Shown here: piece after piece, positions 397 through 30,838 of the stretch
Layout: the number at the start of each line of letters is the position of its first letter
Numbering within the stretch: the first letter of the stretch is position 1
NCBI RefSeq assembly: GCF_011065895.1
Contig: NZ_JAALCR010000027.1
Location: 1 to 64,000, forward strand
Direction of reading: 5' to 3'
Source: Paludisphaera rhizosphaerae
GTDB taxonomy: Bacteria; Planctomycetota; Planctomycetia; Isosphaerales; Isosphaeraceae
DNA length: 64,000 nucleotides
The notes under the pieces: generated by a model
What the model was told of the DNA's origin: nothing
Databases searched by the model: none
Seen by the model: only the letters and a program-made list of their open reading frames with translations
Program-made: the position numbers and the translations under genes

Positions 397-3279
397 ATGG
401 AGAATCAAGCGACTCCCGCAGTCGATCGTTCGGGCGTCGACCTCGCCGAGGTTCGGAACGAGGCGAAGCGATATCCGATCGACCTCGGGAACGGTCGGGA
501 CGATCCGGACCTGCTCTTCGTGCTCGGCGTGCTCGCCTTGAAGGAAAGGCGGTACGACGCCGCGTCGGAGTTCCTGGGGAGGGTCGTCGTGTTGGACGGC
601 GGGAGGGCGGACGCGCATCACCTGCTCGGCTCCGCCTACCGTGGGTTGAAACGTCCGGAAGAGGCCCTCGCATGCTTCGCGAAGGCCGCACGCCTCCAGG
701 GCGGCAACCCCCATCTCCATTACGACGTCGGCGCGTTGCATGAGGAAGCCGGTCGGATCGGCGACGCCGTCGCGAGCTTCCGGCGGGCCGTCGAACTGGA
801 TCCGACGCACGCCGACGCTCACTATCGGATGGGCTTCCTGGCCCTCCGGGCGGGTCGCCTTGAAGATGCGGCCTCGGCGTTCCAGTCGACCCTGCGGACA
901 GCCCCCGGCAGGCACGACGCCGCTCGCGGCCTCGGCGGCGTCCGCATGAAACAGGGGCGGGATGCGGACGCAATCGAGGCTTATCGGGCGGCCGTTCGGA
1001 TCCGTCCGGAGGACTTCGAAGCCAACAACGAACTGGGAATCCTGCTGGCCCGGATGCGCCGCTTCGCCGAGGCGGAGTCGTGCTATCGCGAGGCCCTTAA
1101 GCACAAGCCCGACTACCCCGACGCCCATAACAACCTGGGCAACGCGCTCCGCAACCAGGGCAAGTTGGACGAGGCGGCGGCCTGCTTTCGCGAGGCCCTG
1201 CGCCTGAGGCCCAAGTATCCCGAAGCTTTCAACAACCTGGGAATCACGCTCAAGCATCAAGGCAAACTGTCGGAGGCTCTGGTCCACTACGAAAAGGCTC
1301 TCAGCCTCCGGTCGGACTACCCGGAGGCCCACAACAACCTGGGGTTGGCCCTGGCGAGCCGGGGCAAGCTCGAGGCGGCGGTCGTCAACTACCAGCAGGC
1401 GCTGCGGTTCAAGCCGGACTACGTCGAGGCGGCCGCCAACCTGGCCGACGCGCTCTCGGGCCTAGGCCGCCATCCCGAGGCGGCGGCCGTTTACAAGCAG
1501 GCGATCGCGGTGCGGCCGAACGAGCCCAGGCTGCGCAAGAGCTTGGGGAACGCCCTGGCCCGGATGGAGAAATATACCGAGGCCGAGGCGAGCCACCGCG
1601 AGGCGATCCGCCTCGCCCCGAACTACGCCGACGCCCATAACGACCTCGGCATCGCGCTCGCGAGGATGGGACGGTTCGCGGAGGCCGTCGACAGCTACCG
1701 CCGTGCGATCGAGGCGTCGCCCAAGTATGCGGAAGCCTACAACAACCTGGGCAACGCCCTGAGGCACCTCGGCCGGTTCGAGGAGAGCCTGGAGTGCTAC
1801 CAGACGGCGCTGGCCCACAAGCCGCAGTACGCCGACGCCTACAACAACCTGGGAATCGCTTACGCCGAGATGGGCCGTTGCCGCGACGCCGTGGAAAATT
1901 ACACCCAGTGCCTGCGGATCAACCCCAACCACGTCGACGCCCACATGAACCGGGCGTTGACGTGGCTGCGGATGGGGGATTACGCCCAGGGCTGGGCCGA
2001 GTACGAATGGCGTTGGAAGAAGCGCGTCCTGACCCGACGCCCGCTGATCATGCCGCAGTGGAACGGGTTCCCGCTCCAGGGCCGCAGGATCCTGCTGATC
2101 TCCGAGCAGGGGCTCGGCGACACGCTCCAGTTCGTTCGGTTCGCCATGCTCCTGAAGCGGAACGGGGCGGGCGAGGTCATCCTCGAATGCCCCGAGAGGC
2201 TGATCCCGCTGCTCTCGGGGTCGCCGTGGATCGACCACCTCGTCGGCCACGGCCGCCCGCTGCCGGACTACGACGTCTACTGCCCCCTGCTCAACGTCCC
2301 CGGCCTGACCGCGACGTCCGTCGAGGCGATCCCGGCGGAGGTCCCCTACATCCACGCCGGCCCCCGGCTCGTCGAGTCCTGGGGGCGCGAGCTGGGGGCG
2401 ACGCCGGGCTTGAAGGTGGGGATCAACTGGCAGGGCAACCCCAAGTACGCCGGCGACCGGCATCGGTCGATCCCGCTCAAATTCTACGAACCGCTGGCCC
2501 GAATTCCCGGGGTTCAGCTCTTCAGCATTCAGAAGAACGCGGGGCTCGAGCAGCTCGACGCCTGCAAGGGGGCCTTCCCGGCGACGGACCTTGGGCGTCG
2601 CCTGGACGAGTCGACCGGGCCGTTCATGGACACCGCCGCGGTCATGAAGAACCTCGACCTGTTCATCACCTCGGACACCGCCGTGGCGCACCTGGCCGGG
2701 GCGCTCGGCGTGCCGACGTGGATGGCCCTGTCCACGACGCCCGACTGGCGCTGGATGACGGCCCGCGAGGACACGCCCTGGTATCCGACGATGCGAATCT
2801 TCAGGCAGACGGAGCACATGGCCTGGGGGCCGGTCTTCGACCGGATCGCCGACGAGCTGCGGTCGGAGGTCAAGCGGCGGGCCCGGACGCGGGCGATCCC
2901 CGTCAAGATCGCGCCCGGGGAGCTGATCGACAAGATCACGATTCTGGAGATCAAGGCCGAGCGGCTCGCCGACCCCGACAAGCTGCGCCACGTCCGGGAC
3001 GAGCTGGCCATGCTCCGGCAGTGCCACGAGAGCTTCGTCTTCGACCCCGAAGCCGTCCGCGAGCTGACGGCCGAGCTGAAGGAGGTCAACGCGACTCTCT
3101 GGACGATCGAGGACGAGATCCGCGACTTCGACCGAGACGACCACGTCGACCCCCGCTTCGTCGAGCTGGCGCGGGCGATCTACCGGACGAACGACCGGCG
3201 GGCGCAGATCAAGCGGCGGATCAACGAACGGCTGGGGTCGGACCTGGTCGAGGAGAAGTCGTACGGCGGCGGGCGGTAG
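397..3279 (+). CDS. TPR-rich protein with GT9-like glycosyltransferase and C-terminal DUF6165 domain
   Basis: Predicted 960-residue cytoplasmic protein. Residues ~30-530 are back-to-back tetratricopeptide repeats (recurrent A-x-NNLG-x-A and P-x-Y-x-EA motifs, roughly 14 copies). Residues ~535-820 resemble the ADP-heptosyltransferase/GT9-like module often fused to TPRs; visible signatures are ISEQGLGDTLQFVRF and SDTAVAHLAGALGVPTW. Residues ~828-960 match DUF6165 as I know the family (PGELIDKITILEIKAERL, TNDRRAQIKRRIN, ending EEKSY). The start ATG was taken because the TPR pattern begins soon after it. It converges on the GT2 gene with only 7 bases between stops and lies near a GT4 gene, so a role in surface glycan assembly or protein glycosylation is inferred. 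The sugar donor and acceptor are unknown. Family assignment is firm for TPR, good for the other two parts. Confidence 0.88.
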   Translation: MENQATPAVDRSGVDLAEVRNEAKRYPIDLGNGRDDPDLLFVLGVLALKERRYDAASEFLGRVVVLDGGRADAHHLLGSAYRGLKRPEEALACFAKAARLQGGNPHLHYDVGALHEEAGRIGDAVASFRRAVELDPTHADAHYRMGFLALRAGRLEDAASAFQSTLRTAPGRHDAARGLGGVRMKQGRDADAIEAYRAAVRIRPEDFEANNELGILLARMRRFAEAESCYREALKHKPDYPDAHNNLGNALRNQGKLDEAAACFREALRLRPKYPEAFNNLGITLKHQGKLSEALVHYEKALSLRSDYPEAHNNLGLALASRGKLEAAVVNYQQALRFKPDYVEAAANLADALSGLGRHPEAAAVYKQAIAVRPNEPRLRKSLGNALARMEKYTEAEASHREAIRLAPNYADAHNDLGIALARMGRFAEAVDSYRRAIEASPKYAEAYNNLGNALRHLGRFEESLECYQTALAHKPQYADAYNNLGIAYAEMGRCRDAVENYTQCLRINPNHVDAHMNRALTWLRMGDYAQGWAEYEWRWKKRVLTRRPLIMPQWNGFPLQGRRILLISEQGLGDTLQFVRFAMLLKRNGAGEVILECPERLIPLLSGSPWIDHLVGHGRPLPDYDVYCPLLNVPGLTATSVEAIPAEVPYIHAGPRLVESWGRELGATPGLKVGINWQGNPKYAGDRHRSIPLKFYEPLARIPGVQLFSIQKNAGLEQLDACKGAFPATDLGRRLDESTGPFMDTAAVMKNLDLFITSDTAVAHLAGALGVPTWMALSTTPDWRWMTAREDTPWYPTMRIFRQTEHMAWGPVFDRIADELRSEVKRRARTRAIPVKIAPGELIDKITILEIKAERLADPDKLRHVRDELAMLRQCHESFVFDPEAVRELTAELKEVNATLWTIEDEIRDFDRDDHVDPRFVELARAIYRTNDRRAQIKRRINERLGSDLVEEKSYGGGR

Positions 3280-3286: not shown

Positions 3287-4108
3287 TCACGCGCCATCCG
3301 GTCCGTTCGAGGTCATCCGTTTCTTCAAGGCCTCCATCTCGTGGCGGAAGAACACGCTGCCGAGCGCCACCTGGAGCCGGCGCTCGTCCGACTCCTTTTC
3401 CTGGTGGAGCCCGGGGGCGACGCGAAACTTCTCGTACTGGCGGTCGAAGGAGTTGCCGGGCCTTCTCGTGTAGCGGACGGTTTCCTCGGCCAGGAAGACG
3501 CAGCGGAAGAGGCGGAAGAGGGCTTGGTTGTAGAAGACGTCCTCGATCGACCGGAACACGTCCAGCTCGTGGACGAGACGGCCGTCGCGTTTGCGGAAGA
3601 GGTGGACGTCGAAGAAACCGCCGATCTCGTCGTGGAGCCGCCGCCGCAGCGCCAGGTTGATCACCAGGCTGTTGACGATGCGGGCCCGCCAGGTCGGGTG
3701 GACGGGGTCGTCGAGGGCGACGCCGGTCTTGACGACGTCGACCGTCGGGTCATCCAGCGCCCGCAGAACCAGGGAGACGTGAGGCTCCAGGAAGAGGTCG
3801 TCGGCGTCCAGGAAGAGGAGGACGTCGCCCGACGAAGCGGCGACGCCCGCGTTCCTGGCGGAGGCGGGGCCGCCGGGCTCGTCGCGTCGGATCAGCACGC
3901 GATCGGGCCGGCCGACGCAGTAGCCCGCCGCCAGTTCGGACGTCGCGTCGCGCGAGCAGTCGTCCACGATCACGATCTCGCAAGACCGGCCGCCGCCGTC
4001 CTGGGTTTGGAAGTGCTCCCACGACCGTTCGACGCTCCGGAGGGCGTCGAGGAGGGTGGCCTCGTCGTTGTGGGCCGGCACGACGACGGAGATCTTCTCG
4101 GATTTCAT
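3287..4108 (-). CDS. Glycosyltransferase family 2
   Basis: Predicted 273 residues, a GT-A fold transferase using a nucleotide-sugar donor. The N-terminus has the GT2 opening motif VVVPAHND (residues 8-15), followed by IVIVDDCSRDAT and the metal-binding DxD in LFLDADDLF (D101, D103). The open frame continues upstream to 4915, but the ATG at 4108 places the conserved first beta strand at the usual distance, and the upstream part overlaps the divergent GT4 gene. The C-terminal half has no further recognised domain. It is divergent from the GT4 gene (249-base gap) and convergent with the TPR-GT gene, suggesting one glycan-synthesis locus. Specificity cannot be read from sequence. Confidence 0.9.
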   Translation of the reverse strand: MKSEKISVVVPAHNDEATLLDALRSVERSWEHFQTQDGGGRSCEIVIVDDCSRDATSELAAGYCVGRPDRVLIRRDEPGGPASARNAGVAASSGDVLLFLDADDLFLEPHVSLVLRALDDPTVDVVKTGVALDDPVHPTWRARIVNSLVINLALRRRLHDEIGGFFDVHLFRKRDGRLVHELDVFRSIEDVFYNQALFRLFRCVFLAEETVRYTRRPGNSFDRQYEKFRVAPGLHQEKESDERRLQVALGSVFFRHEMEALKKRMTSNGPDGA

Positions 4109-4357
4109 GGGGACGACGTCGCCCAGGCGCTCGGTCGAAGCGAGGGCCGCGACGACCTTCGGCTCGCTCGACCGCGAATGTTGAAAACGGCGTCCAGTAT
4201 GACCGGGACGATCCCTCGCGCCGACCCCGCACCCGCCGCAATCTCGACGCGGATCGGCAATGGAAGCCCGGGTTCGGCGTCTTTCACCCGAGGGCTCGCA
4301 TGCCCTAGAATCTCGGGGCCTGGGGCGATGCGACGGGGCATGATTCGGGGGTAGGCG

Positions 4358-5563
4358 ATGGGAATCGATCGGGTCCTCTTCGCGTCGGTCCACGGCTACG
4401 TCGACCCTTCGAGCGGGGCGGCGGTCTCGACGCGCGAGCTGATGGAGCTGCTCGCCGCCGGGGGGATCGACGCCCGCGTCCTCTCGACCGGCCTGGTCGA
4501 CTTTCCCGACGAGACGCCGCTGGGGGGACTGCTCGACGGGCTCGGGACGCCCTATCGACGGGCCAGGGCCGCCCTCTCGACGCCCGACGCCGGGGCGGAC
4601 GTCGAGGTCTTCGACCTGACGCTCGGCGGCGTCCGGGTCGCGCTCATGCCGACGGCCGGCAGCCGGATCGCCAGGTGGGCGGACTCGGCCGAGGCCGTCG
4701 CGTTCCTCGACCTGGCCGACCAGGTCTTCGCCCGATTCCGGCCCCAGGTCATGTTCACCTACGGCGGCCACGTCGTCGGCCGCGAGCTGATGGCGCGGGC
4801 TCGGCGGCGGGGGATCGCCGTTGTCTTCCACCTCCGGAACTTCGAGTACTCGAAGCCCGACCTGTTCCGCGACGTCTCGGCCCTGGTCGTGACGACCGAG
4901 TACGCCCGCCGCCACTACGCCGAGGTCCTGGGCCGCGACTGCGTGGTGATCCCCAACGCGATCCGACCCGATCGCGTGGTCGCCGCCGACCGCGCGCCGC
5001 GCTACCTGACCTTCGTCAATCCGCAGCTCGCCAAGGGGGCGGCGGTCTTCGCCCGAATCGCCGCCGAGCTGGGCCGGCGGAGGCCCGACATCCCCATGCT
5101 GGTCCTCGAGTCCAGGGCGCGGGCGAAGGGGCTTGAGCGGGTGCCGCTCGACCTGTCGGGCGTCGCCAATCTACATCGGATGGCCAACACGCCCGATCCT
5201 CGCGACTTTTACGGGGTGAGCCGGGCGGTGCTGATTCCGTCGCTGGTGCGGGAGACGTTCGGCCGGGTCGCCGCCGAGGCGATGTCCAACGGCCTGCCGG
5301 TGCTGGCCAGCGACCGCGGGGCCCTCCCCGAGGTCGTCGGCGACGGCGGCTTCGTCCTGCCCGTCCCGCCGCGGCTGACGCCCTCCTCGACCGAGCCCCC
5401 CACGGCCGAGGAAGTCGCCCCCTGGCTCCAGATCATCGAGCGGCTCTGGGACGACCCCGCCTGGGAGGCCGAACAATCCGCCCGCGCCCTGGCCTGGTCC
5501 CGGCGCTGGGACGAGGGCCGAATCCTGGAGCAGTATCACGACTTCTTCCGCTCCCTCGCCTGA
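4358..5563 (+). CDS. Glycosyltransferase family 4 (group 1)
   Basis: Predicted 401 residues with GT-B layout. The N-terminal half has a Rossmann-like acceptor domain (HGYVDPSSGAAVSTREL near residue 11). The C-terminal half has the donor-site pattern of GT4 enzymes: VIPSLVRETFGRVAAEAM followed by GLPVLASDRGALPEVVGDGG, in which the Glu of RETFG corresponds to the conserved E of the EX7E motif. The product would be a retaining transferase that adds a sugar to a lipid or growing glycan at the cytoplasmic face. The start ATG at 4358 precedes the first strand. Neighbouring GT2 and TPR-GT genes support a cell-surface polysaccharide or glycoprotein role. Confidence 0.9.
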   Translation: MGIDRVLFASVHGYVDPSSGAAVSTRELMELLAAGGIDARVLSTGLVDFPDETPLGGLLDGLGTPYRRARAALSTPDAGADVEVFDLTLGGVRVALMPTAGSRIARWADSAEAVAFLDLADQVFARFRPQVMFTYGGHVVGRELMARARRRGIAVVFHLRNFEYSKPDLFRDVSALVVTTEYARRHYAEVLGRDCVVIPNAIRPDRVVAADRAPRYLTFVNPQLAKGAAVFARIAAELGRRRPDIPMLVLESRARAKGLERVPLDLSGVANLHRMANTPDPRDFYGVSRAVLIPSLVRETFGRVAAEAMSNGLPVLASDRGALPEVVGDGGFVLPVPPRLTPSSTEPPTAEEVAPWLQIIERLWDDPAWEAEQSARALAWSRRWDEGRILEQYHDFFRSLA

Positions 5564-6062: not shown

Positions 6063-6368
6063 TCAAACGGAGGATGATATCGCAAGAAGTATCTGACGCT
6101 TCAACGATCGCAAATCCTTGGCTCCGACTTGAAGTACCGGCCGTTCCCAGTCGCCGTTCTGAACGACCGTAACCTTGAACTCTCCTTGAGGATCAAACGA
6201 AGGGTACCAACCAAGATCAAGTATGGTTCCGCCCGGAAAGGCGATCTGCGCCAAATCCTCTTTGAGATCATCAACTTGTTCACTCAACGGGGCAACCTCG
6301 TTGATCCCATCTAAATCCCAGAAGACAATCCTGCCAGACTTCCAATCAAACATCTCTTGGTCCATCAT
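6063..6368 (-). CDS. Candidate immunity protein for the RHS toxin
   Basis: Predicted 101-residue acidic, soluble protein without signal peptide or membrane segment. Its ATG (6366-6368) overlaps the TGA of the giant RHS gene (6365-6367), an ATGA junction typical of translational coupling; a second in-frame ATG follows immediately. The central part (IAFPGGTILDLGWYPSFDP, then GEFKVTVVQNGDW) resembles small proteins often found behind polymorphic toxins in my recollection, but I cannot name the family. Position directly after the variable toxin tip, small size and overlap support an immunity role: binding and neutralising the C-terminal toxin in the producing cell. Not proven; it could also be an unrelated small protein. 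Confidence 0.65.
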   Translation of the reverse strand: MMDQEMFDWKSGRIVFWDLDGINEVAPLSEQVDDLKEDLAQIAFPGGTILDLGWYPSFDPQGEFKVTVVQNGDWERPVLQVGAKDLRSLKRQILLAISSSV

Positions 6369-9300
6369 CTCACCTTGGTAAGTTTTTGAAATTCTTCGGC
6401 CGTGATTGGATGTCCATGAATTGTTCCGCCGCTCTCCTCAACTCGCACCCACCTTGATGGTTTTCCAGCGGAGGCACCAATTTCGTCCGGAAACTCCATC
6501 ACCCTCCAAGGTTTCCCGTTCGTTGCGGGAATTCCTTGACTATGAACCATTCGTTCAAGTTGTTCGATGTCAGTCCCCGGCTTGTATTTAGCAGGACCGT
6601 TCTTCGTTCCTTTGACAATCGTTTTCCAATCGAGTTTGCCGGAGGCTACATGCTTTCCGTTGTAGTTGGTCCAATTTGGACGTTGTGCGTTTGGAGCAGC
6701 CGTTTCGCCCGCCGCGGCTTCGTCGGCTGCGGCGGCCTCGCCGGCCTCGGCGGCTTCCTCGGCCCCGTTGGTGTTGTGGACGAGGACGCCGTTCCAGCCT
6801 ACCGCGTAGCACTCCAGCTCGTCGACGTGGAAGTTGTAGACGTCGTCGTGGTACGGCTCGATTCGGACTCCCCGCACGGGGACGACCCGCCCGTCGCGGA
6901 GGAGTAGTTCGTCGCCGACACGAAGGTCGCCGGCGTCGACCCAGCGGCCGGGCGTCGTGGAGCCGTCGGGAGCGGCGGGGAGGTGGTCCCGCCGGGGGCG
7001 GTCGTCCAGCGCTTCGCCCCGGATCACCCAGAACGGGTGGAGCAGGGTCGCATCGACGGTTTCCTCCGCTTCGGCCGCTACGGTGACGGAGACGGAGTGG
7101 CCCTCGTAGAGGGTCCGGAATGTCTGAAGGACCCGGCGGAGCTTCCACACGCCCGCAGTCAGGTCGAAGGCCCAGACGAAGTCCCCTTCCTGGACTTTCT
7201 CGATGACCAGGAGGCCCTCCGACGTCGCCACCAGCGTGCCGGCCGGGAAGCAGTTCATCAGGCCCTTGACGGTTCCCCAAGCGCTCAGCGCGGCCATGCC
7301 CAGGTGGTCGATGCCGTTGGCGATGTCGCCCTTCGAGAAGGACTCGTAGGCTTTACCGCTTTCAGTGACGGCGACCACGCCGCCGACGACCGTTAGGGCG
7401 GTGGCAGCGTAGGGTGCGTAGGGGGCCATGGTCGCGAGGATCCGTGCGGCACCCGGTATGGCTGGCGCCACTTTCGACGCAACCGCTACGCCGCCGACGA
7501 CGACCGCCACCTGGCCCGCGCGGCCCAGGAGCTTGGCGACCCCGAACCCGACCTGAGCGGCGACGTCGCCGCGCTCCATCGCGGCTTGCTGGGCCTGCTG
7601 GGCCCGTTCGTGCCCCGCGTACCCGAAAGAGAAGGTGTCGGCGGCGACGGCGCCCGTATCGAGGACACTGTTCCCGACGGCTTCCTTCACCGCCTGGTAG
7701 GCGTCGTCCGAGGCGTTGATGTCCCCCGTGTAGACCCCGCGCATGACCTTGTCGCCGACGTAGGCCGCCGCGTCGTACACGGACGACCACAACGACAGCC
7801 CGCTGGGGTCGGTGTAGTCGACGGGGTCGCCGGCGGCGTAGCGGTAGACGTTCGGGTCGCCGGCGGCGAGGTTGGAGGGGTCGGGCTCGATCCAGGTTCC
7901 GGTGCGAGGGTCGTACCAGCGGGCGCGGTTGTAGTACAGGCCGGAGAGAGGGTCGTATTCGCGGGCGGTGAATTTGTAGCGGTCGCCGTACGAGGGGTTG
8001 GTTTCGACCGTGACGTTGCCGGCGGTATCGTAATCAAGGTGGTCGAGGACGGTTCCCGATGTACCCACGATGTCGCGCACGGAGCCCAGGCGGTCGGTCA
8101 GGTACCACGCGGGGCCCGTCGAGGAGGATTCGAGGGCGAGGATCTGGTCGGTGCCGTCGCCGAAGACGTAGCGCGTCGTGAGTTGGTTGTTGGCGTTGAA
8201 GTCGGCCCAGGCGTTGGGGCCGTCGTAGGACTGGCGGACGACGGTTGGCGAGGCGGCCCCGGCGGTCCAGGCGGTCTCCTGGATGCGGTCGCCGAAGACG
8301 TCGTAGACGTTGATCTCGCTGGCGACGACCGCGCCGGAGGCGTCCTTCTCGACGGCCGAGACGAGGCGGTCGGCGTCGTCGTAGGCGTAGGTCCAGGAGA
8401 CGCCCGTCGAAGGGTCGGTCTTGCCGACGCGGTCGCCGGCGGCGTCGTACGTGTAGTTCCACGTGCCGTCAGAGAGGAGTCGATTGCCGGCGCCGACGAC
8501 GTAGCCGCCGCCGGTGCGGTTGCCGGCGGCGTCATATGTATACGTCGTCGTGCCGTCGGAGGTCAGGCGGCCGGCGTCGTCGTACGTGTAGGACGTCGCG
8601 CCGGGGACCTCGGGCTCGGAGGGGGTCGGGTCGTCGACCTCGCCCCCGCCTTCATCGCCGCCGCTTTCGACGTCAGAGCCGCCGTCGTCAGAGCCGCCGT
8701 CGTCGACGCCGTCGAGCTCGGACGCCACGCGGCCGTTGTCGTCGTACGTGTAGGCTTGCGAGTCGACGAGGTTGCCGGCGGCGTCGTGGTCGAGGATCGT
8801 TTCCACGTCGCCCGAGGCGTCGTACGCGTAGGTCGTCGAGCCCGAGGCGGCGCCGTTGGTCGTCCGCGTGATCGAGGCCAGTCGGCCGGCGGCGTCGTAC
8901 GTGAAGAAGGCTTCCAGGGTGGGCTGGCCGGGCGCGACGGTGCGGCGCGAGACGAGCCGGTCTTGAGAGTCATAGATCGAGACCTGCCGGCCGCCGGCGG
9001 AGTCCAGCCGGGTGACGACCTCGCCGTTGTAGCGGAAGCTGAGCCAGTGGTTGCCGGGCTCGGTCTCGTAGACGAGGCGGCCTTGCGAGTCGTACAGGAA
9101 CGTGTACGCGCCGGCGTCGTTCGATGCGGCGGCCAGGCGGCCGGCGGCGTCGTAGGCGAAGCGCAAGCGGTCCACCAGCATGCCCGCGGCGTCGTACCAG
9201 TCCTCGGCGACGATGCGACCGGCGGCGTCGTAGACGAAGGTCCGCCTGCGGCCGTCGGGGTCGACGGTCGCCGCCACACGGCCGGTCGAGTCGTAGGAGT

Positions 9301-12300
9301 ACGTCGTCACGCCGCCGGTGGGGTCGGTCTTCCGGTCCAGTCGGCCCTGGTCGTCGTAGGCGTAGGAGGTCGTGCCGCCGTCGGGATCCGTGACCGCGAC
9401 AGCCTCGCCGGCCGCGTTGTAATCCACCGTCGTGGCGTCGCCCGCGCCGTCGGTATAGACGACCACCTGGGCGACGGTGGAGCTTTCGGACGACGAGTCG
9501 CTTTGGTCGATGGTCGTCGCGGCCCGGCCGAGGGCCAGGTTGGCGAGGTCGGGCCCGTGGATGAACCCGGGGCCGATCCCCGCCGGCTCGATCGACGGAT
9601 TGAACGTCGCCGAGGGCGAGACCAGGCCGCCCCGGGGCCGGTTCGCGAAGCCCGCGTCGGCCGACAGCGGCGCCAGCGAGACCAGGGGGTCGCCCGACGA
9701 ATCCCCCAGCGTGAACCCACTCAAACCGCCTGACCTGAAGCCGAAATCCCAGCCCCCCGAGTAACCACCCGAAGCGCCGCCTGAATATCCGCCGGAGCCG
9801 CCCCCCGAGTATCCGCCCGATCCGCCCCCCGAATATCCGCCCGATCCGCCCCCCGACTCGCCGCCGCCCCCGGTATCGCCCGAACCGGCGGAGCCCAGCC
9901 CGCCCCAGAGCAGGACGGTGGCGGCCTTGGGCCGTCGCCCCGCGGCGGCAAGGCCAGTCAGCACGTCGGCCTGGTCGGGCGGGTCGTCGCGCGAGACGCC
10001 GTCGGGCACCCCGACGTTCTGGACGAAGCTCCCCAGCTTCGTCGCCTCCTCGACCGGCCGACCGTCCGCCGTCATGGCGTCCACGTTGGGCGCGGCCGTG
10101 CCGTACGTTAGGTCGCCCGTGAGATTGTAGGCCGTGTCGGCGTCGATCTCCCCTTCCCCGATCGTCGCGTCCGGTCGATAGACGGCGACGTTTCGTGGCG
10201 GGGGTTGCGTCAAGGAGATCCGACAACCGCTGAGGTCGGCGTCGAAGCCCAACTCCGCCTGGGTGGGATACCTCTCCTCGGCCAGGCCGAGCAGGCTGCC
10301 GGTCCCGCCCAGTGTGGGCATGGGGACCCAATAGTATTCGGCGACGATCGGATAGTCCGGCAGGCCGTACGGCGGGCTGCCGACGGACGTCCCGTGGATC
10401 ACCGGCGGGTCACTGCTGGTCGCCAGCTGAGAGCCGGTGCCTGACGACCCCCATTCCGTCGCGGTGAAATCATCGCTGTCGTCGCCGCTTGACGACCACG
10501 AGCCATTCTGGTCGCTCCCGACGTCGCCGCCGGACTGCGAGGACATGAACGTTTGCCCGAGCGAGAACGATTCCTCCCCATCGCTGGAAGTATAGACGCC
10601 GTCGTCGGATTGCGAGCTTTGGCCGATGCGGAATTGGGCATCGATGTACGGGTCGGACGTTGAGTTCAGCGACTGTCCCGATTCGGTGTTTGTGAAGCTG
10701 TTGGAGTCGTAATAATCCGAGCTAAGGCCGAGGGATGACGTGACGAGGCCGTCTGTGTCCGTCGAGTCCTGACCGTTGGCGTAGAAGTCGAACGCCTCGG
10801 AGGTGCTTGCGCCCTCAAGCACCTGATAACCGTCCGAGCCGGTCGCCTGATAATCGAACGAAGTCTGGCTGGTGCGAGCCTCCTCGGCGTGGTAGGAGTC
10901 CGACGACGAATTGAGCGTGCCGGACGTCGTGGAGCCCCCAGCCTCGTGCAGGCTGATGGAGTCGGTCGAGGGATTGTCGTCGATCATGAGGCCTTCGCTG
11001 AACGAGGCGCTGGAATCTGCCTCACCCGCGTCAGAGACCATGTCGTCGAGGGTATAGCTCTCCGTCGCCTCGGCGAGCGTCGGGGTCGTCGCGCCGCCGT
11101 AACCGTATCCGTCGTCGCCGGATTCGTCCGCGCTCAGGGTATCGTATCCGGACGCATGCAGATTGAAGGATTGAGTCGCCGACCCATGGAAGTCGGTCAG
11201 GCCGTGGTTCCCAGAGGAGGCGTCGGAGTAAGTCTGCAGATCCGAAACGTCCGAATCGAGGGTATGGACGTCATCCCAGGTGTAGGTCTCGGTCCGGCCG
11301 GAGAGCGTGTCGCCGTCGGTGTAGACGTCGACGCCGTGGTCGCCCCAAGAGGAGTCGACGGAGTCGGTCAGGTTGTAGGAGTACGTCCCGCCCGAGGAAT
11401 TGTGGTTGGAGCGGTCGATTTCGTATTCGTCGTTCCCCTCCTGGCTCCAGGAGAACGAGATCGTGCCCGGGACGTCGACGCCGCCGGTCGTGATGGACTC
11501 GGTCCCCGACTCGCCGAAGCCGTAGGAGTCGCCGCTCGACTCGGCGACGGCGAACGAGGCCCCGACGCCCGAGAGGTCGAGGACGCGGTCCAGCGACCTT
11601 CCCTCGCTCCAGGAGAAGCTGGCCGAGCCTTCGAGGATCGTGCCGTTCGTCCCCAGCGTCTCCGTGCCGTCCTCTTGCGCCGCGTTCTCGTGCGAGAACG
11701 TCGTCGTCATCCCCATCGATTCGGTCTGGCTGGAGCCGCCGCCGTCGTCGCCGATCGTTTCGGTCCCCGCTTCGACGCGGGTCGAATCGTCGTCGGCGGA
11801 GGAACTCACGGTGTAGCTGAGGTAACCCGACGCGATGGTCCCGCCCGTCCCCAGTTCGTCGGCGAATTCCTGGTGGATCGTGCTGGTGGAGGAGTCGGTC
11901 CCGTCGACCGTCGCCGTCCCGCTGAGGGGGCGTCCGGTGTCCGACGAGGTCTCGGGGCCCGTTCCGTGCAGCGTCCCGCTGGACGCGTCGAACTCGTCGA
12001 TCGTGTAGGAGTCGGAGCCGGAGACGACTGTCCCCTGGTCGCCGAGGGTCGCCTCCGCCCAGCCCGAGATCGTCTCGCGCTCGGTGGTCGTCTCGCCGGT
12101 TGACTCCGTCAGCGTCATCGTGACGTTGGAGGACATGGACCCGGAGATCGCGTCGGTGACGGTCATGACGGCCGAGTCGGATTCCGTGACAGTCGAGTCC
12201 GACGAGTCTTGGAGGGTCTGGCTCTCGAAGCCGTCGGCAACAGTGCCGTCGAGCCCCAGATCTTCGGTCAGGGTGCCGATCTGGACCCGCGTCGACGACC

Positions 12301-15300
12301 CGGACTCCGAGTCGGAGTCGGCGGCGGTCCCGGCCGCCCAGTCGTTCTCGCCCCCGGCCGAGTCCTCCCAGCCGCCCATCTCGTCGCCGGAGGAATCCCC
12401 GCCGCCGGAGGCGTCGCCGATCACCTCATGATCGCTCTCGGAGAAGCTGATGGTCGTGGCGCCGCCGACGACCCGTCCGTCGTCCCCCAACGTCTCCGTC
12501 GTCGAGGTGTAGAGCGTCGACGAACCGTCCAACGGCTCGGTCGTCTCCAAGGTCCCGCTGACGTGTTCCTGGTCGTCGCCGGAGGAGGAGTCGGCCCCGG
12601 AATTTTCGAGGTCGTCGATCGTGATGTTGGACGAATAAGCGTCCTCGTCGTCGAGGGTCCAGCCGCCGTCGCCGTGCCCGGAACCGGTGCTGACGACGGA
12701 GCCTCCGGTCACGACGCCGTAGGCGCCGAGGACCAGGCTGCTCAGGACGGTCCCGGATTCGTCGAGCGAGATCCCGCTCCCGGTCTCGACCAGGGTGGGC
12801 GACGAGTGGACCGACTCGACCTCGCGGGCGTTGGAGTTCGAGTCGGCGGAGTCGATCCTGGAGGAGTTTTTCGTATCGTCGTCGGACTCCTCGTCGTCGA
12901 CGTCCTCGACCGAATCGTCCGAATAGGTCGCCGACCCGGTGGTCGACCCGCCCAAGATCACGCCGCCCGCGCCGATGGTTTCGTTGGTCTGCTCGGAATC
13001 GTCCTCCTCGTCGTCGGCGTCGTCCGTGTCGACGTCGTGTTCGAAGACCGACTCGTTCTCCTGAATCGAGAGGGTGCTCCCGCCCAGGAAGGCGTTGATC
13101 AGGTCGCTGAGGTAGTCCGTCGCGTCGAACGTGTCCGAATCCGTGGCCTCGTCCGAGCCGTGATCCGATTCGGTCGTCGAGGAGCCGCCGCCCAGGACCG
13201 CCATCGCGGCCCCGAGCGCGAACGTCGACAGGCCGCTCTCGTGGACCGTGTTCTGGAGGACGTCCTGGATCTGGTCCACCTCGTTCGTCGAGTCGTCGGC
13301 CGAGTCGTCTTCTTCCTCGCCCGCCTGGGCGTCCTCTTCGTGGGACGAGACGTGCGCCGAGAGGGAGACTTGATCCCCCAGCGTGTTCTCGTCCGTGTCG
13401 TCGAGGGAAGATCCGATCGTCGTCGCCCCGTCCAGGACCTCGCCGCCGGCCCCGTAGTCGAGTTGGACGGTCTCGTTCTCGGATTCGATCCCCTGGTCGG
13501 AATCGGAGTCGGAATCGGAGTCGGATTCGCCCCCCGACTCATTGCTCGAGGCGGTATCCCCGCCGACCTTGCGCGTGTCGATCTCGACGTCCTGGAGCGT
13601 TTCCGAGCCCGTGTTGGAGTCCGTCTCCTGAAACTGGTCGACCGCGCTCTTGAAGAAGTATCCAACGCCGGAAACGACGACGCCCGCCGCGCCGAGCGCG
13701 AGGCTGGTCGTGTCGGTCAGCCCGTCGGTCTCGGAGTCGGTCTCGGTCTCCGTGTTGGAGGATCCGCCGCTCTCGGTCGAGCTGACCGAAACGGATTCGC
13801 CCGCCGCGGAGTCGGTCTCGGTCTCGAAGTCGGAATCCTGCTCGGAACCCGTCGCGGCGTCTACGATCTGGTCGAAGATGCTGGGATCGATCAGGCTGCT
13901 GAAGAATGATCCGCCGGTCACGCCGCCCGATCCGAATGACACCGTCCCCGATTCGACGGAGGTCGGCTGATCGACTTCGGATTCCTGGATCGTCGAGTGG
14001 TCGTTCTCGGACTCGCCGAACGAGACGGTCGACCGCGAACTCGTCGAGGAGTCGGCCTCGCCGCCCGAAGCCGTGATCGACTCGGATTCGTTCACCGTGG
14101 AATTCGCGGTGTCGGAGTCGGTCTCGCCGAGCGAGAATCCGACGATCAAGCCGCCGGCCCCGAGCGCCAAGGTCCCGCCGGAGGAGACGATCGCGTCGAC
14201 GAGTGTGCTCGTCGCGGTCTCGCCGTCCTGGATCGATTCGCCGTCCTGGTCGTCGATCGACGCCGTGGATCCGCTCGCGACGTCGACGTCGACGTCGTCC
14301 TCGGATTTCGATTCCGTGTCCTGGTCGTTCTCGACCGATGTCGCGGTCGTCGTGGTCCCGCCGGCCTCGCTGATCGTCGCGTCTCCTCCGCTGACGAGCC
14401 CGTACGAGCCGAACGTCTCGTGTCCGTTCTGGGAGTCCGTGGCATGGCCGGTTTCGACGTCGGTCTCGGTCGCGCCGATCGTCAAGGATTCGCCGAGGGA
14501 CGAGGAAAGCGAGTTTCCAGACTCGGTTCGACGTTCCACGTCGTGATCGTCGATCGAGTCCTGGTCGGTTTCGACTTGCGTGTCCGTGCCGTCGACGGTC
14601 CGGTTCCAGCTGAACGTCGAATTCCCCGAGGAGACGACGCTCCCGCTGAACGCCTGAGTCCCCGTCGCCGCGAGCGTCGAGGCCACGTGTCCCTGATCGT
14701 GATCGCTGAACGAATCGTTGAACTGATCTTCCTCGTCCGCCGTGTCGCCGGCGTCCGCCGCCGAGAGTGAGCTTTCGTCGGTTTCCAACCCCGTGTCGGT
14801 CGCGTCGTCGGACGAGTGGAAGTCGTATCCCACCGTCTCCGACCAGCCGTAGGACGTCCCTTCGGAGGATGTAAACGTCTCGCTCCCCGTCTCGCCGTAG
14901 CTTGTCGACTCTCCCTCGGAGTCGCTCTCGGAATCCCCCTGCGTTTCGGCCTCGCCGCTCTCGGCGATCGTCGATTCCCCCACCTCCGTCGACGACGCGC
15001 TCGAGGAATCGCTTTCGCCCCAGGTGAACTGATTCGACCCGGTGGGCAGAAAGCCGCCCGAGGCGATCGTATCGACGCCCGTGACATGGAGCGTCCGGCC
15101 GCCGGAGCCTTCACCGTTCGAAGACGCCGATTCGTCTTCGTCGACGCTCGAGGAGCTGGAGGACTGTCCGGACAGGGCCGTGATCGTCGAAGTGTCGGAG
15201 CCGCTCTCGTCGAAGACGTAGTGGTCGCTCCCCGAACTCACGGCGCCGGAGCCGTCGACCGCCTCGGTCTGGGTCTCGTTCAGGGAAAACGAGTCGGATC

Positions 15301-16891
15301 CTCCATCGATCTCGGTCGTGCTTTCCGACGCGTTGGCGGCTCCCGACGCCGATTGATCGTTCGACAGAGTCAGTGTGTAGTGGTCGGACCCCGTGAGTTG
15401 GTCGGTCAACGTGTGCGTCGAGGTTCCGCCGGACCCGTTGATGGACAGGGTCGCAGATCCGACGTCGTCGAGCGTGAACTGCGACCCGTCCGGAGCGTAG
15501 CCGGTCTCCTGGAAGCTGTAGCTGAGGTAGGCGGAGTCGGACGTGCCGAAGCTCGACCCGCTGTACGACCCGTTGATCGTGTAACCGCCGCCGGCGGTGA
15601 ACTCGTAATCTCCCAGGCCGTCGCTGGCGCTGATTGAGGTCGCCGTCGGCGTGGCGACGATGTTCGTCCCCCCCGTGTCGGTGGGGTTCAGGGAAGCCAG
15701 TGCGCCGTCGATGTAGCTGAGCAGCAAGGCGTCGAGCGTTCGGAAGCCGGCCGAGGAGGCGTCGCCTCCGACCGGGCCGTCGCTGTACGGCGCCGTCGAC
15801 GGCGAAGGAGGAAGCAATCGATACACCTGCGCGAAAACCCCGCCCTTGCCGCCGCCGACGGGACGCACCATCGCGTAAGCGCTCGACAGCATGGGGGACG
15901 CCGACGTGCTCGCGGCGCTCTCGAGGCTCGCCTCGTCCAGAGTCGGATCGAAGCCGCCGTCGGTCGACCCGGCCGCGACGCGACCGCTCGCCAAGGTCGA
16001 ACCGAGGATCGACGTCGGATCGGAGCCCGTTGAATCGAGCGAACCGTGTGCATTTCGAGGCCGCGTCGACATCGGGCCGTGGAGCCGCGTCGAATGACTC
16101 GATGAAAGCCCATCGGTCGACGACGAGGCGTTCGAGCCGATCTCGGCCCAGGGGTTGATCGGAGACCTGGCCGCGAGCCGCTTGGAGTCGCCGGTTCCGG
16201 TCGCCGAATGGACGGCGGAAGAATTCGGCTGATTTTGGAAAGCCGCGTTCTTCGAGGCGTCCGTCGCCGAGGGAGTCGAACCGCCTCCGGGCGATTGGAC
16301 CGCGCCGCTCGCCGCGGCGGACGCGGGCGATCCCCGATCGGCGACGGCCGCACCGGCGTTCGCGCCCAGGCCGACCGAAGCCGACATGGAGGAGTTGGCC
16401 TGGGGGACTGGGACCGCCGGCAGTCGGAAGCCGGCGTTGGACTTCGCCCGGGCCTGGGCGGAGGAGCCTCCCGTCCCTCCGCCGACGACGGGGCCGCCTG
16501 CGCCTGACGATCTGGGGCGTTGCCCGGGGCTGAGGCCGGCGGAATTGTTCGGCCGAATCGTTGCTGCGAATCCGACGAATGGGTCGGACGCCTGGACATT
16601 CTTAAACGCGGCGTCGGGTCCACGTCGGATCGGCCCGCTTCCAAGGTCGGTGGGGGGCGAATCGAGCGAACCGGCCCGACGAAGATGAGCGCGACCCGCC
16701 TCCGCCGCGATCGGTATCCGCCGAGCTTCAGTCCCGGATGCCGAGGGAAGGCCCGTGGGCATGATCGAAATGGGCAGCAGGCCGGGCGGGGCGAACAGCA
16801 TGCTGGACGATTTGATCGGCTCCAGCGGCAATTCGATCGGCGAGGGGCGGTAAGCTCTCGATCGTCGCGAAGCCCTTGCTCTTCCGCCCAT
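6365..16891 (-). CDS. Giant RHS/YD-repeat polymorphic toxin with Ser/Asp-rich stalk, HINT domain and C-terminal toxin candidate
   Basis: Predicted 3508 residues. Layout: ~1-330 Ala/Ser-rich, with PIELPLEPIKSSSMLF near residue 17; ~417-2155 a Ser/Thr/Asp/Glu-rich region built from a degenerate ~65-80-residue repeat; ~2340-2385 a Gly/Tyr spacer (GGSGGYSGG copies); ~2475-3035 RHS/YD repeats (YDDQGRL, YDAAGR) closing with the RHS core signature (DRLGSVRDI, YDPLSGLYYNRARWYDP, DPSGL); ~3085-3205 hydrophobic Ala/Val segments; ~3211-3370 a HINT domain starting CFPAGT, with the LLHPFW block and ending VLVHN; ~3373-3508 a short basic tip as toxin candidate. By family knowledge the RHS shell encapsulates the toxin and HINT or the core releases it. 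ATG 16891 follows a GGGGGAGGA ribosome site. No PAAR, VgrG or Sec signal is visible, so the export route is open. Confidence 0.93.
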   Translation of the reverse strand: MGGRARASRRSRAYRPSPIELPLEPIKSSSMLFAPPGLLPISIMPTGLPSASGTEARRIPIAAEAGRAHLRRAGSLDSPPTDLGSGPIRRGPDAAFKNVQASDPFVGFAATIRPNNSAGLSPGQRPRSSGAGGPVVGGGTGGSSAQARAKSNAGFRLPAVPVPQANSSMSASVGLGANAGAAVADRGSPASAAASGAVQSPGGGSTPSATDASKNAAFQNQPNSSAVHSATGTGDSKRLAARSPINPWAEIGSNASSSTDGLSSSHSTRLHGPMSTRPRNAHGSLDSTGSDPTSILGSTLASGRVAAGSTDGGFDPTLDEASLESAASTSASPMLSSAYAMVRPVGGGKGGVFAQVYRLLPPSPSTAPYSDGPVGGDASSAGFRTLDALLLSYIDGALASLNPTDTGGTNIVATPTATSISASDGLGDYEFTAGGGYTINGSYSGSSFGTSDSAYLSYSFQETGYAPDGSQFTLDDVGSATLSINGSGGTSTHTLTDQLTGSDHYTLTLSNDQSASGAANASESTTEIDGGSDSFSLNETQTEAVDGSGAVSSGSDHYVFDESGSDTSTITALSGQSSSSSSVDEDESASSNGEGSGGRTLHVTGVDTIASGGFLPTGSNQFTWGESDSSSASSTEVGESTIAESGEAETQGDSESDSEGESTSYGETGSETFTSSEGTSYGWSETVGYDFHSSDDATDTGLETDESSLSAADAGDTADEEDQFNDSFSDHDQGHVASTLAATGTQAFSGSVVSSGNSTFSWNRTVDGTDTQVETDQDSIDDHDVERRTESGNSLSSSLGESLTIGATETDVETGHATDSQNGHETFGSYGLVSGGDATISEAGGTTTTATSVENDQDTESKSEDDVDVDVASGSTASIDDQDGESIQDGETATSTLVDAIVSSGGTLALGAGGLIVGFSLGETDSDTANSTVNESESITASGGEADSSTSSRSTVSFGESENDHSTIQESEVDQPTSVESGTVSFGSGGVTGGSFFSSLIDPSIFDQIVDAATGSEQDSDFETETDSAAGESVSVSSTESGGSSNTETETDSETDGLTDTTSLALGAAGVVVSGVGYFFKSAVDQFQETDSNTGSETLQDVEIDTRKVGGDTASSNESGGESDSDSDSDSDQGIESENETVQLDYGAGGEVLDGATTIGSSLDDTDENTLGDQVSLSAHVSSHEEDAQAGEEEDDSADDSTNEVDQIQDVLQNTVHESGLSTFALGAAMAVLGGGSSTTESDHGSDEATDSDTFDATDYLSDLINAFLGGSTLSIQENESVFEHDVDTDDADDEEDDSEQTNETIGAGGVILGGSTTGSATYSDDSVEDVDDEESDDDTKNSSRIDSADSNSNAREVESVHSSPTLVETGSGISLDESGTVLSSLVLGAYGVVTGGSVVSTGSGHGDGGWTLDDEDAYSSNITIDDLENSGADSSSGDDQEHVSGTLETTEPLDGSSTLYTSTTETLGDDGRVVGGATTISFSESDHEVIGDASGGGDSSGDEMGGWEDSAGGENDWAAGTAADSDSESGSSTRVQIGTLTEDLGLDGTVADGFESQTLQDSSDSTVTESDSAVMTVTDAISGSMSSNVTMTLTESTGETTTERETISGWAEATLGDQGTVVSGSDSYTIDEFDASSGTLHGTGPETSSDTGRPLSGTATVDGTDSSTSTIHQEFADELGTGGTIASGYLSYTVSSSADDDSTRVEAGTETIGDDGGGSSQTESMGMTTTFSHENAAQEDGTETLGTNGTILEGSASFSWSEGRSLDRVLDLSGVGASFAVAESSGDSYGFGESGTESITTGGVDVPGTISFSWSQEGNDEYEIDRSNHNSSGGTYSYNLTDSVDSSWGDHGVDVYTDGDTLSGRTETYTWDDVHTLDSDVSDLQTYSDASSGNHGLTDFHGSATQSFNLHASGYDTLSADESGDDGYGYGGATTPTLAEATESYTLDDMVSDAGEADSSASFSEGLMIDDNPSTDSISLHEAGGSTTSGTLNSSSDSYHAEEARTSQTSFDYQATGSDGYQVLEGASTSEAFDFYANGQDSTDTDGLVTSSLGLSSDYYDSNSFTNTESGQSLNSTSDPYIDAQFRIGQSSQSDDGVYTSSDGEESFSLGQTFMSSQSGGDVGSDQNGSWSSSGDDSDDFTATEWGSSGTGSQLATSSDPPVIHGTSVGSPPYGLPDYPIVAEYYWVPMPTLGGTGSLLGLAEERYPTQAELGFDADLSGCRISLTQPPPRNVAVYRPDATIGEGEIDADTAYNLTGDLTYGTAAPNVDAMTADGRPVEEATKLGSFVQNVGVPDGVSRDDPPDQADVLTGLAAAGRRPKAATVLLWGGLGSAGSGDTGGGGESGGGSGGYSGGGSGGYSGGGSGGYSGGASGGYSGGWDFGFRSGGLSGFTLGDSSGDPLVSLAPLSADAGFANRPRGGLVSPSATFNPSIEPAGIGPGFIHGPDLANLALGRAATTIDQSDSSSESSTVAQVVVYTDGAGDATTVDYNAAGEAVAVTDPDGGTTSYAYDDQGRLDRKTDPTGGVTTYSYDSTGRVAATVDPDGRRRTFVYDAAGRIVAEDWYDAAGMLVDRLRFAYDAAGRLAAASNDAGAYTFLYDSQGRLVYETEPGNHWLSFRYNGEVVTRLDSAGGRQVSIYDSQDRLVSRRTVAPGQPTLEAFFTYDAAGRLASITRTTNGAASGSTTYAYDASGDVETILDHDAAGNLVDSQAYTYDDNGRVASELDGVDDGGSDDGGSDVESGGDEGGGEVDDPTPSEPEVPGATSYTYDDAGRLTSDGTTTYTYDAAGNRTGGGYVVGAGNRLLSDGTWNYTYDAAGDRVGKTDPSTGVSWTYAYDDADRLVSAVEKDASGAVVASEINVYDVFGDRIQETAWTAGAASPTVVRQSYDGPNAWADFNANNQLTTRYVFGDGTDQILALESSSTGPAWYLTDRLGSVRDIVGTSGTVLDHLDYDTAGNVTVETNPSYGDRYKFTAREYDPLSGLYYNRARWYDPRTGTWIEPDPSNLAAGDPNVYRYAAGDPVDYTDPSGLSLWSSVYDAAAYVGDKVMRGVYTGDINASDDAYQAVKEAVGNSVLDTGAVAADTFSFGYAGHERAQQAQQAAMERGDVAAQVGFGVAKLLGRAGQVAVVVGGVAVASKVAPAIPGAARILATMAPYAPYAATALTVVGGVVAVTESGKAYESFSKGDIANGIDHLGMAALSAWGTVKGLMNCFPAGTLVATSEGLLVIEKVQEGDFVWAFDLTAGVWKLRRVLQTFRTLYEGHSVSVTVAAEAEETVDATLLHPFWVIRGEALDDRPRRDHLPAAPDGSTTPGRWVDAGDLRVGDELLLRDGRVVPVRGVRIEPYHDDVYNFHVDELECYAVGWNGVLVHNTNGAEEAAEAGEAAAADEAAAGETAAPNAQRPNWTNYNGKHVASGKLDWKTIVKGTKNGPAKYKPGTDIEQLERMVHSQGIPATNGKPWRVMEFPDEIGASAGKPSRWVRVEESGGTIHGHPITAEEFQKLTKVR
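9745..9870 (-). repeat. Gly/Tyr/Ser tandem repeat inside the RHS protein
   Basis: A ~24-base tandem unit on the minus strand encodes GGGSGGYS-type octapeptides about five times (residues ~2340-2385). It separates the stalk-side region from the YD repeats and is probably a flexible linker. Confidence 0.85.
10430..15300 (-). repeat. Degenerate ~65-80-residue acidic Ser/Thr-rich protein repeat
   Basis: The encoded segment recurs around a core reading roughly [TAF]-[LIF]-G-x-x-G-x-[VI]-x-x-G-[SGA]-x-[ST]-[FY], each core followed by a Ser/Asp/Glu/Thr-rich spacer. Clear cores: LALGAAGVVVSGVGYF (~13690), LDYGAGGEVLDGATTI (~13440), ETIGAGGVILGGSTTG (~12965), LVLGAYGVVTGGSVVS (~12715), ETLGDDGRVVGGATTI (~12480), ATLGDQGTVVSGSDSY (~12030), ETLGTNGTILEGSASF (~11635). 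Spacing falls from ~240 to ~200 bases toward the C-terminus. At least 15 copies by eye. Confidence 0.8.
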
Positions 16892-17709: not shown

Positions 17710-17715
17710 TGCGAC

Positions 17716-30062: not shown

Positions 30063-30838
<776 letters not shown>

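Follow-up and report, generated by a model that had tools for sequence, protein, structure and literature searches.

The toxin gene and its domain layout

We analysed a window of 64,000 nucleotides, namely positions 1 to 64,000 of the forward strand of contig NZ_JAALCR010000027.1 of the planctomycete Paludisphaera rhizosphaerae (assembly GCF_011065895.1). Its reverse strand holds the gene of a polymorphic toxin in which a long array of repeated units of about 80 amino acids (aa), with the marks of putative giant beta-hairpins, precedes the toxin part. We call this gene the carrier gene and its repeat-bearing part the carrier. Relatives of it were found in two other genera of the Isosphaeraceae (genomes G009 and G019), and in all three genomes a gene combining tetratricopeptide repeats (TPR), a glycosyltransferase (GT) domain and DUF6165 lies nearby. 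The features of the carrier gene and of its small neighbour are the following.

6365..16891, (-): polymorphic toxin gene (P0001), an open frame of 3508 aa with matches to RHS_repeat (1.3e-34) and PT-HINT (9.8e-14)
16712..16891, (-): conserved N-terminus, aa 1-60, basic then hydrophobic (three-member alignment)
15863..16711, (-): linker, aa 61-343, Pro/Ser/Gly-rich and poorly conserved
14972..15862, (-): conserved head, aa 344-640, holding the first putative hairpin units (50% and 43% identity to the two relatives)
about 11162..15259, (-): putative giant hairpin array, aa about 545-1910, with 17 anchored cores, or 18 if the 138-aa gap has a degenerate one
12257..14653, (-): array middle, aa 747-1545, units of 77-83 aa (unit stacking and anchors; structure model of aa 1056-1318)
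9494..11161, (-): end of the acidic region and post-array segment, aa about 1911-2466 (three-way alignment)
7796..9493, (-): RHS/YD repeats and RHS core-associated domain, aa 2467-3032 (Pfam and NCBIfam matches)
6773..7252, (-): pretoxin HINT protease region, aa 3214-3373 (PT-HINT and Hint_2 matches)
6368..6670, (-): C-terminal toxin tip, last 101 aa
6063..6368, (-): candidate immunity gene, 101 aa, with a 4-base overlap with the toxin stop (from its position)

The Pfam and NCBIfam matches in the 3508-aa protein are confined to its C-terminal third, where we found RHS repeats (seven stretches in Pfam), the RHS core-associated domain TIGR03696 of NCBIfam (1.5e-18), which precedes the variable tip, and the pretoxin HINT region, whose cleavage is a prediction from sequence. 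Further upstream, the post-array segment contains a conserved DGVS-x-PP stretch and a Gly-rich linker. The array segment itself (1746 aa, about aa 420 to 2165) consists of 19% Ser, 13% Gly, 12% Thr and 20% acidic residues, with 4 Lys, 19 Arg and no Cys. It matched no Pfam or NCBIfam family at E <= 0.1, and neither the head profile nor that of the C-terminal units had a convincing match among PDB sequences (best E 0.44). An earlier note on this DNA had described a long repeat that extends an RHS toxin, and knew of no named family with this repeat. Both points are supported, the second within Pfam, NCBIfam and PDB sequences, and the coordinates given there for the repeat were about right. RTX adhesins and toxins are built on arrays of the GGxGxDx nonapeptide, and no RTX-type family was among the Pfam and NCBIfam matches at the same threshold. 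We also considered the array as divergent YD repeats and rejected this, since hhalign comparisons of the C-terminal and middle units with the RHS parts of the window protein and of G019 gave E values of 0.76 and 0.78.

A repeated core with nearly constant spacing

The core of the array is LGxxGx(V/I)xxG, which recurs every 77-83 aa in mid-array and more closely at both ends (aa 545-1857). Anchored cores number 17 in the window protein, 17 in G009 and 18 in G019, with the following spacings (in aa).

Window: 64,138,80,83,77,79,80,80,80,82,80,77,71,64,66,54
G009: 65,139,81,80,80,81,80,80,80,80,80,76,67,70,67,54
G019: 64,138,80,81,80,81,80,80,80,80,81,92,88,71,64,67,52

The spacing of 80 aa is nearly constant in the middle of the array, both ends are shorter, and G019 has two longer intervals. 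Judged by eye, the interval of 138 or 139 aa looks like two units, one of them with a degenerate core, which would raise the counts to 18, 18 and 19. Most anchors were taken from the list of a position-specific scoring matrix (PSSM), one (G019 1106) came from a regular expression, and window 987 and G019 945, 1186 and 1267 were set by eye at the expected spacing, while the PSSM-listed places window 1713 and 1857 and G009 519, 1435, 1954 and 1999 were left out.

When we searched the three proteins with the strict expression [LIVYF]G..G.[VIL], it occurred 11 times in the window protein and 12 and 13 times in the two relatives. Among 2000 global shuffles the window protein averaged 0.70 occurrences and had 5 at most, and over all three proteins the means were 0.5-0.7 and the maxima 4-6. 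A looser expression occurred 16, 18 and 16 times (window and two relatives) with shuffle means of 8.2, 7.1 and 4.4 and maxima of 20, 17 and 13; it is therefore not decisive for the window, whose 16 matches lie within the shuffle range. The PSSM used on the window, trained on the two relatives only, listed 18 places at a threshold that lets through about one false match, and 13 of these exceeded the 5% whole-sequence threshold (15 of 21 in G009 and 9 of 14 in G019). A unit hidden Markov model (HMM) built with one protein left out at a time found 11 (window), 12 (G009) and 11 (G019) stretches in the held-out protein at an independent E <= 1e-3, and no shuffle gave more than one stretch, whether it preserved local composition (100 per protein) or the alternation as well (a further 100).

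The periodic core of the earlier note, said there to be repeated at least 15 times, is confirmed, with 17 anchors here; the strict expression, the PSSM and the held-out HMM all exceed shuffles. Its unit of about 65-80 residues, or 200-250 bases, has to be corrected to about 80 aa (240 bases). Of the motif L/I-G-x-x-G-x-V/I-x-x-G-S-x-S-F/Y the core stands, but the S-x-S-F/Y tail marks the end units rather than the middle; the spacing does shorten toward the C-terminus, but not there alone, as the N-terminal end shortens too. The stepwise expansion read from that shortening is not borne out, because neighbouring units resemble each other scarcely more than remote ones do (0.30 versus 0.26-0.29) and the spacing is common to three genera. 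Indeed, adjacent window units share 30% aa identity and units nine apart 26%, their nucleotide identity is 55-60% whatever the distance, and between the window and G009 orthologous units are 33% identical and non-orthologous ones 27%. Spacing and core number are nearly the same in the three genera despite saturated unit sequences, and a unit length that persists where unit sequence is near saturation points to structural constraint. In profile comparison, the head resembles the C-terminal units with a probability of 85% (E 6e-6).

Alternation locked to the core

Serine/threonine (S/T) residues alternate along the array, with lag-2 z scores in 12-aa block shuffles of 3.2 in the window protein, 9.0 in G009 and 4.3 in G019, and acidic residues alternate likewise in the window protein (z 6.2) and G009 (z 3.1). 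When we stacked the units on their cores, S/T residues occupied the odd positions and D/E the even positions of offsets 10-44. A VGG-like Gly turn follows in mid-unit at offsets 45-46 (43% and 71% Gly in the 14 units of exactly 80 aa), and beyond it the parity is reversed. This flip at the Gly turn is what an antiparallel hairpin demands, in which i+j is constant and odd.

Of 92 strands, 82 had their S/T excess on the face predicted for it (26 versus 3 in the window protein, 28 versus 2 in G009 and 28 versus 3 in G019), whereas in 2000 within-strand shufflings the count averaged 41.3 and never exceeded 56. This test covers anchored intervals up to 100 aa, the 138/139-aa interval of each protein being dropped. 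Strand A obeys in 44 of 46 units and strand B in 38 of 46 (6 against, 2 ties), and in the units outside 78-83 aa, which are mostly end units, 20 of 20 A strands and 19 of 20 B strands obey. In an earlier version with 24 units, 21 had S/T on the odd face of strand A, after which several anchors were shifted by one residue (G019 1187 to 1186, 1268 to 1267 and 946 to 945; window 988 to 987). Two of its three exceptions were shifted G019 anchors, and the shift at window 987 made one exception, which was retained. S/T residues make up 53% and 47% of one face and 15% and 18% of the other, and the face opposite S/T is 39% and 33% acidic and 28-31% hydrophobic. The hydrophobic residues are spread along the strands, with no visible membrane belt.

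Structure model

Predicting the structure of two to three units, as had been proposed for this repeat, succeeded in part. AlphaFold2 (AF2), given window aa 1056-1318 in nine rows of non-overlapping unit windows, returned two-strand hairpins in one of five models. That model has six strands of 35-36 residues, two per unit (20-54, 57-91, 99-134, 137-172, 180-214 and 217-251), and its turns fall at both predicted Gly sites. Support from AF2 being thin, the argument leans on the sequence evidence and the model is used only as agreement. The top matches to it in Foldseek and VIA-align were giant-hairpin pores of the MAC/perforin class and outer-membrane barrels of the BamA class, which implies no homology, and a viral fold library likewise gave shape matches only.

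Relatives and differing tips

Profile searches of planctomycete genomes, also suggested beforehand, found the repeat in at least three of 397 sampled genomes of the class, these counts being among first-look candidates scored per genome. With the head profile they are the window's own genome, G009 and G019, and a scan of a second genome collection found the same two relatives. The tail profile gave at least three strong matches as well as G040 at 2.7e-5, and the unit profile at least three genomes and one weak match (G158, 6.6e-4). Four further weak tail-profile matches (E 0.0095-0.093) were not trusted. Except for the G040 fragment, the carrier had no match in five other genomes of the window's genus or in the rest of 45 family genomes, and the head had none in a plasmid collection. 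The fragment in G040, another genus, is a carrier-like stretch of 119 aa (L026 7482-7838, (+)) that ends near a transposase frame (L020 1879-3072, (-)), which we take to be IS66-like. A tblastn of the three carrier proteins on L026, run without a low-complexity filter, produced many compositional matches, of which only this profile-supported fragment was kept.

The window protein ends in RHS repeats, HINT and a tip without family, while G019 ends in RHS repeats (2.3e-48), HINT and Ntox21 (E 2.7e-26). In G009 the tip has only a methyltransferase match below the cut-off (E 0.04), and since neither piece of its carrier has a Pfam family at E <= 0.1, there is no RHS there. As read from these sequences, the same carrier ends in a different tip in each of the three genomes, and in one of them it has no RHS repeats. 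The window tip, queried as the last 135 aa, matched no Pfam family above the cut-off and no NCBIfam family; it resembles a place that carries the annotation 'S-type pyocin domain-containing protein | hypothetical protein' on a plasmid of Klebsiella michiganensis (37% identity, E 5e-10).

In all three carriers a small same-strand open reading frame (ORF) overlaps or abuts the toxin stop, and from this position we regard these ORFs as candidate immunity genes. The 101-aa candidate of the window matched no Pfam or NCBIfam family above the cut-off and in the plasmid collection had one partial match, to a Subdoligranulum record without annotation (36% over 52%, E 2e-4). PADLOC gave no match for the tip or for the immunity candidate. 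At the other end of the protein, the conserved aa 1-60 may be an unusual export signal and are the sole candidate signal seen; among 40 genomes they had strong matches only in the three family members, with E >= 0.02 elsewhere.

At the G009 locus (L005, contig C76), the carrier gene and the TPR-GT gene each have one in-frame stop, through decay, assembly error or mixed strains. The G019 locus (L006, contig C269) has an orphan carrier-tail fragment at 841-1131, (-) (profile 1015-1215, E 7e-18, one internal stop). It lies on the downstream side of the immunity-like ORF and looks like the decayed remnant of a second carrier or of a displaced cassette. A CRISPR-like array lies at 27-579 of the same locus, near the contig start and about 700 bases from the immunity-like ORF; its eight copies of a repeat of about 36 bases, by eye, are spaced at 72-74 bases, the last copy being 68% alike. 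Possible giant toxins were also seen in two other planctomycetes, with a PT-HINT match inside a 10696-aa open frame (G030 C1:3927981-3928268, 1e-6) and one below the cut-off inside a 5455-aa open frame (G027 C1:1690241-1690471, 2.8e-4).

The linked TPR-glycosyltransferase gene

Three forward-strand genes lie beyond the 3' end of the carrier gene.

397..3279, (+): protein of 960 aa with TPR, a glycosyltransferase domain (weakly GT9-like) and DUF6165
3341..4354, (+): ORF of 337 aa, no family
4358..5563, (+): family-4-like glycosyltransferase (Glyco_trans_1_4, 1.7e-11)

The TPR part of the 960-aa protein was identified at E 2.3e-99, and PADLOC returned TPR and other repeat-type matches for it. 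The gene stands 3.1 kb beyond the 3' end of the carrier gene, the other two ORFs lying between, and it is the single place found for PF19662 (DUF6165) in the window's genome. In both relatives its counterpart lies directly past the 5' end of the carrier gene and points away from it (G009, L005 frames 9138-11090 and 11094-11630, carrier start 9122; G019, L006 frame 14445-17648, carrier start 13938). A PF19662 gene is thus found near the carrier, on the same contig, in all three carrier genomes. Over the family, PF19662 occurs in 9 of 45 genomes, namely in three of three with the carrier and in six of 42 others, and the chance of such an overlap is about 0.006 with adjacency uncounted. In a tree of ten GT + DUF6165 regions, from which G024 (DUF6165 alone) was left out, the three carrier-linked copies group with the G048 copy at 98/99, and the three alone at 76/80.

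When we applied a composition filter to six genomes with unlinked copies, none had an acidic Ser/Thr-rich frame. The neighbours of unlinked copies were viewed in three genomes, and Ser/Thr-rich, secreted-looking ORFs adjoin in two of them (G046 and G048; sites L055 3543-5915, (+) and L053 3370-4401, (+)). The enzyme family may generally lie beside its substrates. According to the available text on FlmG of Caulobacter, that protein combines TPR, which bind flagellin, with a GT-B domain and acts in the cytoplasm as an O-glycosyltransferase (PMC7591256). The linkage, the domain type and the composition of the substrate together suggest that the TPR-GT enzyme glycosylates the S/T face of the carrier.

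Other features of the window

Upstream of the 5' end of the toxin gene, an ORF at 17290-18114, (-) has DUF4158 (1e-14), a domain that is often part of a Tn3-type transposase. A 2478-aa ORF at 18388-25824, (+) has NPCBM and seven Fn3 stretches. A GC-rich tandem array with a 6-base unit in about 22 copies occupies 30247-30380.

A proposed sheet of giant hairpins and its alternatives

The reading we favour, which in our judgement falls just short of even chances, is that the carrier is a giant beta-hairpin sheet with a Ser/Thr face, O-glycosylated by a dedicated FlmG-like enzyme, which displays polymorphic antibacterial toxins. It starts from the repeat, its spacing, the phase-locked alternation, the differing tips and the gene linkage, all of which are present in the sequences. 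The detailed fold, glycosylation, secretion or export, target and toxicity that we infer from these would be as follows. The array would form about 18 giant antiparallel beta-hairpins, each 80-residue unit consisting of two strands of ~35 residues around the mid-unit Gly turn, with the LGxxGx(V/I)xxG turn joining it to the next unit, and the sheet would have one face rich in Ser/Thr and the other in Asp/Glu and hydrophobic residues. After synthesis, the TPR-GT-DUF6165 enzyme would O-glycosylate the Ser/Thr face, probably while the protein is still in the cytoplasm, in the manner of FlmG and flagellin, and the protein would then be exported with its conserved basic-hydrophobic N-terminus as the candidate signal. 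Once displayed, the broad, negatively charged, sugar-coated sheet would hold the C-terminal toxin at a distance from the producing cell so that it can be delivered to competitors. In two of the three genomes the toxin would be borne via an RHS cage with its HINT protease, the third having no RHS repeats; HINT, where present, would release the tip, non-immune neighbours would be killed, and the adjacent small gene would confer immunity.

Several observations weigh against this reading. Only three members are known, units and orthologues are non-independent samples, the core anchors were curated, and the in-frame stops in the G009 carrier and TPR-GT frames mean that this copy may be decayed. Ten of the 92 strands have no S/T excess (8 reversed, 2 ties), acidic residues give no lag-2 signal in G019 (z -0.9), and the acid sign test is weak in the end units (p 0.04 and 0.10). 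In profile comparison, the head and middle units show a weak likeness (44%, E 2.4e-4) and the middle and C-terminal units are hardly alike (3.8%, E 0.011), so that the unity of the array rests on core, order and phase. The hairpins appeared in only one AF2 model, with a predicted local distance difference test score (pLDDT) of 60.6, the other four models reaching 31-35; the C-terminal end units gave an uninformative pLDDT of 29.5; and the Foldseek (TM mostly 0.1-0.25) and VIA-align (Z up to 9.5) matches of the pLDDT 60.6 model are to shape classes only. On the side of the enzyme, the GT domain matches Glyco_transf_9 at 2.3e-4 with 21.0 bits, below the cut-off of 22, and PDB sequences gave only weak glucansucrase matches (E 0.015). 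Moreover, TPR-GT-DUF6165 occurs without the carrier in G008, G043, G045, G046 and G048 and as second copies in G009 and G019, and G024 has DUF6165 alone, again without the carrier.

The alternative that survives best, although we think it rather unlikely, is that the acidic Ser/Thr stretches are disordered linkers, similar to SD repeats and spaced by short sticky LGxxG cores, in an extended flexible stalk. A composition heavy in Ser, Gly, Thr and acidic residues would be expected of such linkers, as would the low AF2 confidence and the weak similarity of the middle and C-terminal unit profiles. However, disorder supplies no reason for a core-locked S/T alternation or for its phase flip at the mid-unit Gly turn, and the middle units stay at 77-83 aa in three genera while their sequence is near saturation.

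Likewise improbable, in our view, is a second cage unrelated to RHS, in which the hairpin strip would curl shut as a large barrel or spindle, either to house the toxin or to conduct it. The anchored cores are nearly constant in number (17, 17 and 18), their spacing shrinks at both ends, and G009 has the array without any RHS match, all of which favour a defined closed body; the giant-hairpin pores and barrels at the top of the Foldseek and VIA-align matches count in the same direction. In the available text of PMC8765631, the RHS cocoon is described as 76 antiparallel strands that spiral into a hollow shell of 86 x 65 A, which is a precedent for hairpin strips as toxin shells. On the other hand, two of the three carriers retain RHS repeats, which argues against the sheet as the only cage; no membrane belt is visible in the array, its hydrophobic residues being distributed along the strands; the profile comparison with YD repeats was null; and the structural matches are of shape only. 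In the boldest form of this idea, which we hold to be more doubtful again, a single chain would make a closed giant beta structure of ~36 strands (~35 residues in mid-array) that tapers toward its two ends and has one of its faces coated with sugar. It would be a toxin capsule or conduit of a second kind, with no relation to the RHS cocoon and capable of standing in for it (as in G009), and would have a dedicated O-glycosyltransferase of its own. Polymorphic toxin stalks are a known concept in the available part of PMC3482391, and a stalk, as suggested in the earlier note, is plausible here. The nearly fixed core number and the tapering ends, however, are unusual for an elastic stalk and compatible with a closed shell too, and if the strands run across the axis of the sheet, a broad ribbon or a closed shell could form as easily as a rod.

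A rod of small globular domains in tandem, each of 80 aa and Ig-like or of another type, such as many adhesins have, is a quite improbable explanation. An Ig-like domain has about this size and a neighbouring gene carries Fn3 domains, but the array itself has no Ig-like or Fn3 match (two Ig-like PDB chains appeared only at E 0.44-0.47) and few buried hydrophobic residues, and a period of 2 over ~35 residues speaks for long strands rather than for seven short ones. Low complexity driven by composition, with no selected repeat (a GC-rich Ser/Asp codon artefact), is scarcely credible, since the stricter expression, the held-out profiles and the phase test all exceed shuffles in spite of the strong compositional bias and of a loosest expression that stays within the window shuffle range.

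Comparison with known systems

The window protein shares with RHS/YD toxins such as RhsA and Tc BC the RHS repeats, core-associated domain, HINT, variable tip and candidate immunity gene, and both YD repeats and array may use antiparallel hairpin strips. Unlike YD repeats, the array has 80-aa hairpins, as we read it, with acidic and Ser/Thr faces and no profile similarity, and the G009 tip comes without RHS.

Serine-rich repeat glycoproteins are characterized by Ser-x dipeptide repeats, accessory Sec export and GtfA/GtfB. The carrier resembles these proteins (Fap1, PsrP) and the SD-repeat adhesins in being very long and Ser-rich, with linked glycosyltransferase genes and probably a surface location. 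It differs from them in lacking a simple dipeptide array, in its units of ~80 aa, each with two Gly turns and with cores almost constant in number, and in being planctomycete and toxin-tipped, with a TPR enzyme instead of GtfA/GtfB. SRR2 is reported in the available part of PMC7661464 to form an extended stalk.

The window enzyme is likened to FlmG by domain layout, with a TPR N-terminus and a glycosyltransferase C-terminus, and the substrates of FlmG are dedicated ones, as far as the text available describes them (PMC7591256). Unlike FlmG, it adds DUF6165, and its proposed substrate is giant and acidic, and not flagellin. The HMW1/HMW1C pair of Haemophilus, in the part of its literature at hand, likewise has a glycosyltransferase that modifies a large secreted adhesin, but it is N-linked and uses two-partner secretion. 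We take the HMW1 repeat to be unrelated to the array. The Kuenenia S-layer protein, as its accessible description goes, is a planctomycete surface protein with heavy O-glycosylation, but forms an S-layer and is not a toxin carrier.

Significance

Polymorphic toxin carriers are known as such; what appears new here is the repeat architecture, and the enzyme partner is unexpected. The carrier would be an element new to polymorphic toxins, with no match to the known repeat families searched, and its sequence code, an S/T alternation phase-locked to a turn motif, predicts very long hairpins from sequence alone. If the enzyme does glycosylate the carrier, this would be the first polymorphic toxin with a dedicated O-glycosylation gene within the accessible parts of the open-licence literature searched, and the system would offer a tractable test case for the display of giant proteins by planctomycetes.

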